From Sanguibacter hominis ATCC BAA-789 (GTDB taxonomy: Bacteria; Actinomycetota; Actinomycetes; Actinomycetales; Cellulomonadaceae), in NCBI RefSeq assembly GCF_012396185.1, contig NZ_JAAXOW010000004.1:124001-188000 (forward strand): a stretch of 64,000 nucleotides of DNA, written 5' to 3'. The translations under genes were made by a program, and so were the position numbers. Shown here in pieces: positions 37,890-42,201 of this stretch (positions within the stretch are counted from its first letter, which is position 1; every line of letters starts with the position of its first letter). The notes beneath the pieces are model-generated. The model was not told where the DNA came from and did not search any database. It worked only from the letters and a program-made list of their open reading frames with translations.

Positions 37890-37918
37890 TTGACACCCCT
37901 GGACCCCGCGCCTAGATT
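37890..37918 (+). promoter_or_regulatory. Sigma-70-type promoter of the SAM-IV leader
   Basis: TTGACA (37890-37895) and TAGATT (37913-37918) are separated by exactly 17 bp. This is the best consensus promoter in the window and points to a start near 37925, leaving a leader of about 520 nt before the next large gene. Confidence 0.8.
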
Positions 37919-37974
37919 GCGCAGTAATTCCGGAACGCAGGGTGTCAAACCAGGTGACCGGAAGGACTCGACAG

Positions 37975-38090
37975 GACAAGGTCACGAGTATCAGCGACAA
38001 GCCCCGGCTCGCTGGTCAGCAACCCTCCCGCGCGGTGGGGTGCTCCGGGTGAGGACCTGGCACCGGATCTCGGTGCAAGAGCGCAGCCGC
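37975..38090 (+). promoter_or_regulatory. SAM-IV riboswitch
   Basis: The stretch reproduces the SAM-IV aptamer core: P1 from AGGTC (37979-37983) pairing with GACCT (38054-38058), the kink-turn-like GTCACGAGTATCAGCGACAA, AGCCCCGGCTCGCTGG, GCAACCCTCC, GCGGTGGGGTGCTCCGGGTG. The downstream GCACCG/CGGTGC hairpin (38060-38076) is followed by GC-rich pseudoknot strands. SAM-IV is an actinobacterial S-adenosylmethionine sensor usually placed before sulfur-metabolism genes; binding is expected to switch expression off. Confidence 0.9.
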
Positions 38091-38119
38091 GAGAGCGGTT
38101 CGGACAGGAGACACGCACG

Positions 38120-38224
38120 ATGATGGCAGGACGGCTTCGCACACCCGCGTCGATCTCGCTCGCCCCTGTGATGTGTCCGACCTGTATGCCCTGCGGGTCC
38201 GTCGCCTGTTGTCCCCGCGACTGA
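38120..38224 (+). CDS. Cysteine-rich leader peptide (34 residues)
   Basis: ATG 38120 follows a GGAG site by 9 nt and opens a 34-codon frame that ends at TGA 38222-38224. The second half reads MCPTCMPCGSVACCPRD, with five cysteines in 13 residues, two of them adjacent. It lies between the SAM-IV aptamer and the monooxygenase gene. Poly-cysteine upstream frames are known in mycobacteria to sense cysteine by ribosome stalling and to attenuate sulfur genes; a like role here is inference from composition and position. Confidence 0.75.
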   Translation: MMAGRLRTPASISLAPVMCPTCMPCGSVACCPRD

Positions 38225-38232
38225 CCCGCTGA

Positions 38233-38342
38233 GGTCCGCCCACGGCGGACCCCTGCCGGCGACCGCCGTCGCGCTCCCGAGCGCGCACGTCGTCGCCTGA
38301 CCGTCCTTCTCGGACACCGCCGATGCCGGCTCCTCAGGAGCC
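38233..38342 (+). promoter_or_regulatory. Candidate attenuator hairpins after the leader peptide
   Basis: GGTCCGCC/GGCGGACC (38233-38251, CAC loop) begins 8 nt after the leader peptide stop, within ribosome reach. A second hairpin GGCTCC/GGAGCC lies at 38328-38342. There is no gene between 38225 and 38448. Alternative pairing controlled by the leader-peptide ribosome is plausible but not demonstrated. Confidence 0.45.
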
Positions 38343-38448
38343 CCCGGCCGTTGCAGTCACCTCGGCGCACGCTGCGCACCGTCCCCCCTGACGACGTGAG
38401 TCCGTGGGGTCGGTGCTGCGCGCCGCCGTCACGCAGAGAGCGAAGACC

Positions 38449-39429
38449 ATGACCTCGACCACCCCTTCTCGTCCCACGACCGCCGACCGTCAGATCCACC
38501 TGGGTATCGACCTCACGAGCGCGGGCGCGCGCCGCGTCACGAGCCGCGTGCCTGTCGCGTCGTTCGCGAGCGCGTTCGACGCCGAGCGTCTCGCCGACCT
38601 CGTCGCCGCGGCGCAGCGCGGCACCCTCGACTTCGTCGCGATCGACGACTCGTTCCGTCTCCAGCCCGAGACGGTCGGCCTGCTGCGCGGCCGCCTGGAC
38701 GCGGCGGTCGTCGCGTCGCGCCTCGGGAAGGTCACGCACGGCGTGGGTCTCGTCGCGACGATCTCGCCCGAGGCGACCGAGCCGGAGCACGTCGCGACGG
38801 CGCTGCAGACGATCAGCCGGGTGTCCGGCGGCCGCGCAGGGTGGCAGGTCGACGGCAGCGCGCCCGACCGGTCGGTGACGGCCGTGACGCGGGCCGTGTC
38901 GTCGGTCGCGCCGACGGTCGTGCGCGTGCGCTCGGACGCTCAGCTCGAGCGTGCCGCCCGGCACGCGGACGTCCTGCGGATCGCCGCGACGGACCTCGAC
39001 TCGGCGCTCGAGCAGCGCCGTCGGGCTCGGACGATCGCCGTCGAGGCGGGCCGTGCGGCTGACGACGTCCTCGTCCTCGTCGACGTGTATGCCGTCACGG
39101 GTCCGGACGCGGAGAGCGCGCAGGCGCGTGTCGAGCTGCTCGACGCGTTCGAGGGGACGGACGTCGTCGCGCAGCACTCCGACTCGCTCATCCACGTGGG
39201 GACGCCGCTCGACCTCGCGGAGCTTGCCGAGGCGTGGTTCGAGGCGGGTGCGGTCGACGGGTTCGTCGTGACGCCGTCGTCGCTCGTCGCGGACGTCGCG
39301 GGCCTGGTCGACGGCGTGGTGCCCGCGCTCCGGGCGAGCGGCGTGTTCCGCCGCGAGTACCCGGGGGCGACGCTGCGCGAGAGCCTCGCGCTCACGCCGT
39401 CGGGCGTGGGGGTCCTCGCCGGGGTGTGA
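38449..39429 (+). CDS. LLM-class flavin-dependent monooxygenase-like protein
   Basis: The 326-residue protein has a luciferase-like TIM-barrel pattern: LDFVAIDDSF, HGVGLVATISPEATEPEHVA and SGGRAGWQVDGS as in the NtaA/SnaA/DszA group, and a C-terminal DGFVVTPSSL. It is well below the usual 430-450 residues of that group, lacking part of the insertion region, yet shows no stop or shift. Sulfonate or dialkyl-sulfur use fits its SAM-IV and cysteine-peptide leader. The flavin reductase partner is not in the window. Confidence 0.8.
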   Translation: MTSTTPSRPTTADRQIHLGIDLTSAGARRVTSRVPVASFASAFDAERLADLVAAAQRGTLDFVAIDDSFRLQPETVGLLRGRLDAAVVASRLGKVTHGVGLVATISPEATEPEHVATALQTISRVSGGRAGWQVDGSAPDRSVTAVTRAVSSVAPTVVRVRSDAQLERAARHADVLRIAATDLDSALEQRRRARTIAVEAGRAADDVLVLVDVYAVTGPDAESAQARVELLDAFEGTDVVAQHSDSLIHVGTPLDLAELAEAWFEAGAVDGFVVTPSSLVADVAGLVDGVVPALRASGVFRREYPGATLRESLALTPSGVGVLAGV

Positions 39430-39619: not shown

Positions 39620-41485
39620 ATGGCTCAGGCTGACGCAGCGACGCGGACCCAGGTCGACGTGGGGTCGACCATGCGCGAGTACCTGGACCGGACCGACTGG
39701 CGCGTCAACGCCAACGCCAACCAGGGTTACTCCCTCGGCGGCCTCATCCTCAACACCGCCGGCAAGGTCACCGCGAACTACTGGCTCTCCGAGGTGTACC
39801 GCCCCGAGGTCGGGCAGGCGCACCGCGACGGCGACCTGCACATCCACGACCTCGACGTGTTCGGCGGGTACTGCGCCGGCTGGTCCTTGCGCATGCTCCT
39901 GACGCAGGGCTTCAACGGCGTGCCGGGCAAGGTCGAGTCGAACCCGCCCAAGCACTTCAGCTCCGCCGTCGGGCAGATCGTCAACTTCCTCGGCACCATG
40001 CAGAACGAGTGGGCCGGCGCGCAGGCGTTCTCCTCGTTCGACACGTACATGGCGCCGTTCGTCCGCAAGGACGCGATGACCTACGACCAGGTCAAGCAGT
40101 GCGTCCAGGAGCTCATCTACAACCTCAACGTCCCCTCCCGCTGGGGCACGCAGACGCCGTTCACCAACCTCACGTTCGACTGGACCTGCCCCGAGGACCT
40201 CCGCGACCAGGTGCCGCTCGTCGACGACTCCCCGATGGACTTCACGTACGGCGAACTCCAGGCCGAGATGGACCTCATCAACCGCGCCTACATCGAGGTC
40301 ATGACAGAGGGTGACGCGTCGGGCCGCGTCTTCACGTTCCCCATCCCGACCTACAACATCACCGAGGACTTCCCGTGGGAGTCCGAGAACGCGACGCGAC
40401 TGTTCGAGATGACCGCGAAGTACGGGCTGCCGTACTTCCAGAACTTCCTCAACTCCGAGCTCGAGCCCGGGATGGTCCGCTCGATGTGCTGCCGCCTCCA
40501 GCTCGACCTGCGCGAGCTGCTCAAGCGCGGCAACGGACTGTTCGGGTCGGCCGAGCAGACCGGGTCGATCGGCGTCGTCACCGTGAACTGCGCACGCCTC
40601 GGATACCTGTTCCGCGGCGACGAGTCCGCGCTGGTCGCCCGGCTCGACGAGCTGATGGACCTCGCGAAGGAGTCGCTCGAGGTCAAGCGACAGGTGGTGC
40701 AGCACTACATCGACGAGGGCCTGTTCCCGTACACGCGCCGCTACCTCGGCAACCTCGACAACCACTTCTCGACGATCGGCGTCAACGGTCTCAACGAGAT
40801 GGTCCGCAACTTCACCGCGACAGCCGAGCAGCCGCAGGGCGCTCTCGACATCACGGACGACGAGGGGCACGCGATGGCCGTGCGCATCCTCGACCACGTC
40901 CGCGCGCGCATGGTCGAGTTCCAGGAGGAGACGGGCCACCTCTACAACCTCGAGGCGACCCCCGCGGAGGGGACGACGTACCGCTTCGCGAAGGAGGACC
41001 GGGCGCGCTGGACGGACATCCTGCAGGCGGGCACCGAGTCGAACCCGTACTACACGAACTCCTCCCAGCTGCCGGCCGGGTTCACCGCCGACCCGTTCGA
41101 GGCGCTCGAACGGCAGGAGGAGCTGCAGGGCAAGTACACGGGCGGCACGGTGCTGCACCTGTACATGAGCGAGAAGATGAGCTCGGCGGACGCCGCGCGC
41201 GAGCTGGTGCACCGGTCCCTGCAGAACTTCCGCCTGCCGTACATCACCGTGACGCCGACGTTCTCGATCTGCCCGAACCACGGCTACCTCGCGGGCGAGC
41301 ACCCGACGTGCCCGCGCTGCGCCGAGCGACGACCGGACGCCGAGCCGGTCGTGTGCGAGGTGTGGACGCGCGTCATGGGCTACCACCGGCCCGTGAGTTC
41401 GTTCAACATCGGGAAGAAGGGCGAGCACGCGGAACGGCAGTTCTTCACGGAGGAGCGGGCGCGAGCGCACCTGCGGTCAGCATGA
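39620..41485 (+). CDS. nrdD: Anaerobic ribonucleoside-triphosphate reductase NrdD (class III)
   Basis: The 621-residue glycyl-radical enzyme makes deoxynucleotides without oxygen. Visible are DLHIHDLDVFGGYCAGW at the active site, CCRLQLDLRELLKRG, the zinc-type cluster with Cys551, His554, Cys564 and Cys567 (ICPNHGY...CPRC), and radical Gly587 in RVMGYHRPV. The first cysteine pair of the usual four-cysteine site is replaced by Cys-His. It is coupled to nrdG and lies behind NrdR-like boxes. It is somewhat shorter than E. coli NrdD because it lacks the ATP-cone. Confidence 0.95.
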   Translation: MAQADAATRTQVDVGSTMREYLDRTDWRVNANANQGYSLGGLILNTAGKVTANYWLSEVYRPEVGQAHRDGDLHIHDLDVFGGYCAGWSLRMLLTQGFNGVPGKVESNPPKHFSSAVGQIVNFLGTMQNEWAGAQAFSSFDTYMAPFVRKDAMTYDQVKQCVQELIYNLNVPSRWGTQTPFTNLTFDWTCPEDLRDQVPLVDDSPMDFTYGELQAEMDLINRAYIEVMTEGDASGRVFTFPIPTYNITEDFPWESENATRLFEMTAKYGLPYFQNFLNSELEPGMVRSMCCRLQLDLRELLKRGNGLFGSAEQTGSIGVVTVNCARLGYLFRGDESALVARLDELMDLAKESLEVKRQVVQHYIDEGLFPYTRRYLGNLDNHFSTIGVNGLNEMVRNFTATAEQPQGALDITDDEGHAMAVRILDHVRARMVEFQEETGHLYNLEATPAEGTTYRFAKEDRARWTDILQAGTESNPYYTNSSQLPAGFTADPFEALERQEELQGKYTGGTVLHLYMSEKMSSADAARELVHRSLQNFRLPYITVTPTFSICPNHGYLAGEHPTCPRCAERRPDAEPVVCEVWTRVMGYHRPVSSFNIGKKGEHAERQFFTEERARAHLRSA

Positions 41486-42201
41486 TCCTCGCGGACGACC
41501 TCAACGTCGCCGGCTTCGAGCCGTTCTCGTCCTGCGACTGGCCAGGTCGTCTCGTCGCGACGGTCTTCCTGCAGGGCTGCCCGTGGGACTGCGGCTACTG
41601 CCACAACGCGGCGATCATCGACCCGCGCGCGCAAGGTGAGTCGAGCTGGGCGGAGGTGCGCGCGGTCCTCGCGCGCCGTCGCGGACTGCTCGACGGCGTC
41701 GTCTTCTCGGGTGGTGAGCCGACCCGCCAGGCGGGGCTCGCCGCCGCGATGCGCGAGGTGCGCGCGGCCGGCTACGCCGTCGGGCTGCACACCGGGGGCG
41801 CGTACCCGCGCCGGGTGCGTGACCTCGCCGCGGAGGGTCTGCTCGACTGGGTCGGCCTCGACATCAAGGGCCCGCGCGACCGGTTCGACGCCGTCACGCG
41901 GAGGCCGGGCGGCGCCCGGCCGGCGTTCGAGACGCTCCGCGTCCTGCAGGAGGCCGGGGTGCCGATGCAGGTGCGCACGACGGTCGACCCGACCGTCCTC
42001 TCGCCCGACGACGTCGCGCGTCTGACCGCCGAGCTCGCCGAGGCCGGCGTCACCGACCACGTCCTGCAGGAGGTGCGCACGGACGGCGCCCGGCCCGAGT
42101 TCGTCGAGCGGTTCGCCGAGATGAGCCGTGCGTCGAACGGAGCGGCCGTGGTGCGGGCCGCCGGGCACGGACCGGCGCACCTCGACGTGGTCTCGTCGTG
42201 A
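41482..42201 (+). CDS. nrdG: NrdD-activating radical-SAM enzyme NrdG
   Basis: The 239-residue activase creates the glycyl radical on NrdD. It has the radical-SAM motif CPWDCGYC (C-x3-C-x2-C, around residues 33-40), FSGGEPTRQ for SAM binding and LDIKGP. The ATG overlaps the nrdD stop by 4 bp. The family annotation often reads pyruvate formate-lyase activating type, but coupling to nrdD decides the partner. Confidence 0.94.
   Translation: MILADDLNVAGFEPFSSCDWPGRLVATVFLQGCPWDCGYCHNAAIIDPRAQGESSWAEVRAVLARRRGLLDGVVFSGGEPTRQAGLAAAMREVRAAGYAVGLHTGGAYPRRVRDLAAEGLLDWVGLDIKGPRDRFDAVTRRPGGARPAFETLRVLQEAGVPMQVRTTVDPTVLSPDDVARLTAELAEAGVTDHVLQEVRTDGARPEFVERFAEMSRASNGAAVVRAAGHGPAHLDVVSS

Follow-up and report, generated by a model that had tools for sequence, protein, structure and literature searches.

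The leader described here lies on the plus strand of a 64-kb stretch of DNA (the window) from a genome of 2.98 Mb and precedes a gene at positions 38449-39429, presumed to be the regulated one. The gene codes for a 326-aa luciferase-like monooxygenase of NtaA/DmoA type, which scores above the cut-off of PF00296 and agrees with the flavin monooxygenase named in the initial annotation of this DNA. Among the NCBIfam models TIGR03860 (NtaA/DmoA) fits it best, although with a score below the cut-off of that model. A role in sulfur metabolism is suggested by the protein family and by the context of the gene. The 326 aa of the window protein compare with 388 aa at the locus L132 and with about 420 positions in TIGR03860, which the protein matches in pieces; an internal shortening has apparently taken place in the genus of the window. 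Directly downstream (39620-42201) follow an anaerobic ribonucleotide reductase gene, NrdD, and an apparent radical-SAM activase frame.

Upstream of the gene, a near-consensus sigma70-type promoter (TTGACA-N17-TAGATT) is found at 37890-37918, where a consensus promoter had been proposed. It is the single match in the window, with 0 expected from shuffled sequence, and the transcript is predicted to start near 37925. The resulting leader length agrees with the approximately 520 nt originally given. The next element is a SAM-IV riboswitch aptamer at 37980-38087. The Rfam model RF00634 aligns over its full length (model positions 1-116) with 98 bits against a gathering score of 38 bits, and this is the sole Rfam match to reach its gathering score in the 64 kb. 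Both the model score and the position on one transcript with a putative sulfur gene place the element among the SAM-IV riboswitches, as had been claimed, and SAM binding is predicted.

Between aptamer and gene lies an upstream ORF (uORF) with its own Shine-Dalgarno sequence (SD), AGGAG at 38106-38110, 9 nt 5' of the ATG. The uORF runs from the ATG at 38120 to the TGA at 38224 and encodes in 34 codons the peptide MMAGRLRTPASISLAPVMCPTCMPCGSVACCPRD. Its cysteines are codons 19, 22, 25, 30 and 31 (positions 38174, 38183, 38192, 38207 and 38210), four of the five being UGU, which bears out the frame with five clustered cysteines of the initial annotation. A small hairpin, AGCCGC-GAGA-GCGGUU (38085-38100), sits between the 3' end of the aptamer and the SD. 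Its fold z is merely -0.7; by eye, a hairpin of differing sequence occupies the equivalent place in most loci that combine aptamer and uORF, a candidate for covariation, and a hairpin is seen at the same place in SAM-IV loci of the genus g24 that have no uORF. The uORF stop is followed by a C-rich spacer of about 220 nt without a T-tract (38225-38448), which folds with a z of -2.3 and carries, from 9 nt past the stop, the hairpin GGUCCGCC-CAC-GGCGGACC (38233-38251). The hairpins at ribosome distance that had been proposed thus exist in this form, but a classical attenuator made of them finds no support: the window leader hairpins are not followed by a U-tract, no intrinsic terminator is present, and no conserved pairing that sequesters the ribosome binding site (RBS) was found. 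A second SAM-IV copy of the same genome, outside the window (G000:C4:37905-38018), is followed immediately, with no uORF in between, by a gene for a SufS-like cysteine desulfurase.

The tandem of aptamer and uORF is real, conserved and non-random. From 46 Cellulomonadaceae genomes we collected 138 SAM-IV loci, together with the regions upstream of relatives of the monooxygenase. An SD-led short ORF stands behind the aptamer at 58 loci from 14 of the 25 genera, and these fall into 21 sequence clusters at 75% identity. This definition of a tandem locus asks for the SD-led ORF; nearly all such ORFs have Cys near the stop, a few with a single Cys (L154, L161, L191, L197). An SD-like motif precedes almost all of the uORFs. 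The genes behind the tandem loci mostly encode luciferase-like monooxygenases, and MetN, NtaA and a substrate-binding protein also occur. Within the genus of the window, the same aptamer is followed by ..VMCMACMPCGSVACCHRD in G003 and by MHQAGWQR..RMCMCMSTCADRCCQR in G002 and G004, in each case before the orthologous gene. The genomes G001 and G005 have a remoter copy of the gene (56-57% identity) and neither the aptamer nor the Cys frame. The Cys codons are accordingly conserved in the relatives that carry the aptamer, and the proposal thereby withstands the first of the two refutations named in the initial annotation, a lack of such conservation. Spurious ORFs are plentiful in GC-rich DNA, and the frame could be a chance one behind an ordinary SAM-IV riboswitch. 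Yet among 21 non-redundant relatives, 19 have one or more Cys within the last six codons of their first short SD-led ORF, whereas shuffles average 0.15 such cases and never exceed 2, although the shuffling also destroys SD and start codons. Together with the 58 loci in 21 clusters and the codon bias described below, this leaves chance with virtually no credit.

Outside the Cys codons the uORF peptides are unrelated across genera. The usual end is CCR followed by the stop, with the nucleotides TGTTGTCGCTGA in 21 loci, whereas the window uORF ends in CCPRD. Neither the window peptide nor eight relatives in its family matched the leader peptide models NF042933, NF042934 or NF042936. In the genus of the window, Met interleaves with Cys (L002, L008, L006 and L007, window 38171-38196; MCMACMPC, MCMCMSTC), as in the metL leader peptide of Streptomyces lividans, and the uORF may also sense Met-tRNA. 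In most loci of the family outside this genus, a conserved GAACGGA (or GAGACGGA) replaces a strong SD 8-12 nt before the monooxygenase start; the motif is absent in the window.

The choice of Cys codons is biased. Cys accounts for 11.4% of codons in the uORF frame and for 5.0% and 2.0% when the other two are read, and 150 of 195 uORF Cys codons (77%) are UGU. The genes downstream of SAM-IV use UGU for 6 of 260 Cys codons (2.3%; Fisher p 4e-70 versus the uORFs), and five genes of the window for 0 of 25. We read this best as selection for a rare, wobble-read codon, which would suit a sensor of tRNA charging and is not needed for peptide function. The bias could in principle reflect a constraint on the RNA. 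This is less favoured, as the preference for UGU extends over the Cys codons of the whole uORF and the tested pairings were negative. The same data bear on the idea that the peptide itself is functional, for example as a small metal- or redox-binding protein for which the cysteines are kept. The window peptide does contain a CxxC-like spacing (MCPTCMPC); however, the Cys spacing differs between genera, the sequences share nothing else, some uORFs encode just MCCCRH, and selection acts on the codon UGU, for which a protein has no use. A functional peptide is in our view very improbable.

The position of the uORF links it to the aptamer. At the tandem loci the uORF starts at a median of 32 nt behind the aptamer (n=58), and at ordinary SAM-IV loci the gene itself starts at a median of 31 nt (n=80; p 0.44). 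The genus g24 holds both arrangements: in three species the aptamer is followed at once by the monooxygenase gene, while in two a uORF (MYRSQCRCCCR, MRRSQTRCCCR) and a spacer are inserted, and the aptamers align throughout, with or without the uORF. Given the equal offset and this insertion, SAM-IV would most simply act on whichever start codon comes next, which is here that of the uORF. The aptamer is thus placed to control a uORF start, as in the B12 and Mbox leaders of Mycobacterium tuberculosis. One could still imagine that SAM-IV and uORF act separately, so that their effects are additive and form no AND gate. SAM-IV does function without a uORF in most loci, and Cys leader peptides exist without SAM-IV. 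But with the uORF start at the usual place of the SAM-IV gene start (32 versus 31 nt) there is no room for a second platform, and we regard two unlinked controls as unlikely. Aptamer and uORF also appear to share a transcript. A site of the form TTGAC-N16-19-(T/C)ANNNT lies 36-95 nt upstream of 53 of the 58 tandem aptamers, and its stricter form (TTGAC..TANNNT) is found nowhere in the 22.6 kb of leader between aptamer and gene of these loci. Transcription starting 3' of the aptamer, which the initial annotation had named as evidence against its proposal, hence finds no promoter-like site in this sequence.

From these observations we propose that the leader is a two-input sulfur sensor in a single mRNA, in which the gene would be on only if SAM and cysteine are both low. 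Transcription would begin upstream of the SAM-IV aptamer. At high SAM the folded aptamer would deny ribosomes the next start codon, that of the uORF and not that of the gene, and at low SAM the uORF would be translated. With ample Cys-tRNA the ribosome would complete the peptide and depart, and the C-rich untranslated spacer would lead to an early end of transcription, most likely via Rho. When Cys-tRNA is scarce the ribosome would stall at the UGU codons adjoining the stop and the gene would stay on. The simplest guess is that the stalled ribosome covers a Rho site adjoining the stop, as happens in the tna operon. We consider this two-input reading probable. It is the best account of the integration of SAM and cysteine signals that had been suggested at the outset, and its support is comparative, with the UGU selection and the start spacing adding to it. 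The promoter, the aptamer, the SD-led ORF with its conserved Cys codons and UGU bias, the start geometry and the C-rich spacer free of terminators are features of the sequence itself; SAM-IV gating of the uORF, ribosome stalling, AND logic and a Rho effector are what we infer from them. Several findings count against the model, namely the single-Cys uORFs, the CCPRD end in the window, the lack of a match to a curated leader peptide family and the SAM-IV elements that stand directly before related monooxygenases without a uORF in other families.

How the leader acts on the gene was addressed with the 56 spacers that could be measured. They contain 50.7% C and 29.9% G, a skew of 0.265 that compares with 0.10 in leaders of directly controlled genes, 0.17 in the coding sequence that follows and 0.02 in the DNA 5' of the aptamers. 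This C-rich, G-poor untranslated RNA after a uORF is what would be expected of a Rho-dependent attenuator. T-runs longer than 3 nt do not occur in the 56 spacers, which rules out a general role for intrinsic termination. A different possibility is translational attenuation, where the leader would hide the RBS of the gene until a ribosome stalled at the Cys codons opens it, and SAM-IV would act on uORF initiation. The spacer is structured (z -2.3), and the closest experimental precedent for a Cys uORF, the mycobacterial polycysteine sORFs, points in this direction. Against it, the gene start is equally accessible at every cut point tried in the 5' part (0.47-0.52), and in the pairing scan no leader window prefers its native RBS to those swapped in from other loci (best z -1.8). 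Thus an RBS sequestration switched by ribosome position received no signal from either scan, and translational attenuation appears rather unlikely to us, if less so than unlinked controls. The flat scans also weigh on the two-input model, for which a conserved structure switched by stalling was not found in the accessibility and swapped-pairing tests. Taken together, the C-rich spacers, the missing terminators and the flat RBS scans favour Rho-dependent premature termination over RBS sequestration, and we hold Rho as effector to be a plausible candidate at slightly less than an even chance. Three further pairings were considered and discarded. Pairing of the uORF tail (UGUUGUCGCUGA) with the aptamer is striking in single loci, but swapped tails pair equally well (-21.6 vs -21.6), and the same is true of its pairing with the uORF SD (-14.0 vs -14.3). 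A CCGACC-GGUCGG pairing, noticed by eye between the first Cys codons of the window and 38411-38416, lacks its partner in the sister species G003.

Both devices are known individually. Two signals are read in one leader in Salmonella mgtA, where Mg2+ sensing is joined to the proline codons of mgtL and Rho takes part. This is alike in pairing an RNA sensor with a ribosome on a leader ORF, and differs in that aptamer, ligand and codons are unrelated. Polycysteine sORFs of mycobacteria were reportedly found to be cysteine-responsive by Canestrari in 2020, and leaderless to judge by the title of that work. Actinobacterial Cys leader peptides were predicted as early as 2005 (Seliverstov 2005, PMC1262725), and PMC13236596 cites the cysteine-responsive mycobacterial polycysteine ORFs as a case of translation attenuation. 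Like these leader ORFs (PMC1262725; NF042933, NF042934, NF042936), the window uORF is translatable and has conserved Cys codons clustered near the stop before a putative sulfur gene. However, the known ones are described as leaderless and without a riboswitch, whereas the window uORF does not start leaderless: it is SD-led and begins about 195 nt downstream of the predicted transcript start, behind an aptamer. The metL leader peptide of Streptomyces lividans, MSTTSDRTPATEATTTPGARCMCRRMCAF, precedes metNIQ and likewise interleaves Cys and Met near its stop (PMC8079986), and the genus of the window has similar MCMCM-like tails; metL differs in being leaderless, and SAM-IV is not reported there. 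Ordinary SAM-IV elements (RF00634) share the aptamer and the sulfur genes but normally lie directly before cysteine desulfurase-like genes, metX or metY, while in the window uORF and spacer intervene.

Interplay between riboswitches and uORFs is established in M. tuberculosis for B12 (PMC11260477) and Mg2+ (PMC12810186). In the metE and ppe2 B12 leaders a riboswitch is likewise followed by a translated uORF that alters expression of the next gene, and at ppe2 ligand binding masks the SD of the uORF (PMC11260477). These leaders differ in the ligand, in uORFs without amino-acid sensor codons and in their single input. The pe20 Mbox-uORF leader, also actinobacterial, combines a translational platform acting on the uORF with Rho-dependent premature termination, which has been shown for it, but it responds to Mg2+ and has no Cys-codon sensor (PMC12810186). 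We found no literature report that joins SAM-IV with a Cys leader ORF, which is weak evidence given that subscription papers lay mostly outside the search. What is described here combines two known devices in a new way, and the combination extends well beyond the window.

Riboswitches and leader peptide sensors are usually treated as alternatives, and here they stand in series within one leader. The metabolites are linked: the methionine branch ends in SAM, and sulfur enters by way of cysteine. If our reading is correct, the leader would compute a logic function without a protein. It would account for the 300-nt gaps before the gene in some SAM-IV loci and provide a simple system, outside mycobacteria, in which to study uORFs under riboswitch control. 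For high-GC genomes, the UGU signature is an easy search handle for Cys-sensing uORFs.

A class-wide sample of 148 genomes, in which 89 SAM-IV loci were read, shows that seven or more further actinobacterial families have tandem-like loci. In f22, f42, f48 and f51, SAM-IV is followed by MCCCRMQQVTGA, MCRCRMTGVAGA, MHCCCTSIYT, MCCCCLSLAHR, MCIRRMCCR or MCIHQAHSRRFVCRR before a metY-like gene; metY (O-acetylhomoserine sulfhydrylase) is confirmed by model for L321, and the other downstream genes look like metY. Three further families (f36, f37, f47) have longer leader peptides behind SAM-IV. Two of these that were scored exceed the cut-off of NCBI 'putative leader peptide' models (L295 with 40.2 bits and L323 with 27.1 bits), L331 likewise does so, and some of the leader peptides found elsewhere behind SAM-IV match NF042934. 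At many other loci, among them records of Nocardia, Rhodococcus and Tsukamurella, SAM-IV controls its gene directly, and a search of a plasmid collection returned only directly controlled SAM-IV or unannotated loci. These data would fit a composite class throughout the Actinomycetes, in which SAM-IV repeatedly controls a Cys- and sometimes Met-codon leader ORF and forms a SAM-AND-cysteine gate in front of MetY, methionine transport and monooxygenases that scavenge sulfur; we see the arguments for and against so wide a class as evenly balanced. If it exists, the class would link metabolite binding by RNA with ribosomal sensing of tRNA charging in one nutrient network. Two search handles were abandoned: the 12-mer TGTTGTCGCTGA as a genus marker gave two matches, both inside coding DNA and due to chance, and NF042934 used on relatives yields ordinary Cys leader peptides without SAM-IV.

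Two minor observations concern SAM-IV loci of other kinds. At eight loci of family f37 (L260, L262, L264, L266, L269, L270, L278 and L281), the interval between aptamer and gene holds a conserved tiny SD-led ORF, VSKRMR, VNQRMR or VSQRMR, which may be the Met-codon equivalent of the Cys uORF. Divergent, back-to-back pairs of SAM-IV aptamers share one intergenic region at G213:C1:849258-849686, G085:C2:77978-78365 and G037:C2:817005-817380, and further such pairs lie at G109:C30:116635-117037 and G626:C16:1956-2291.
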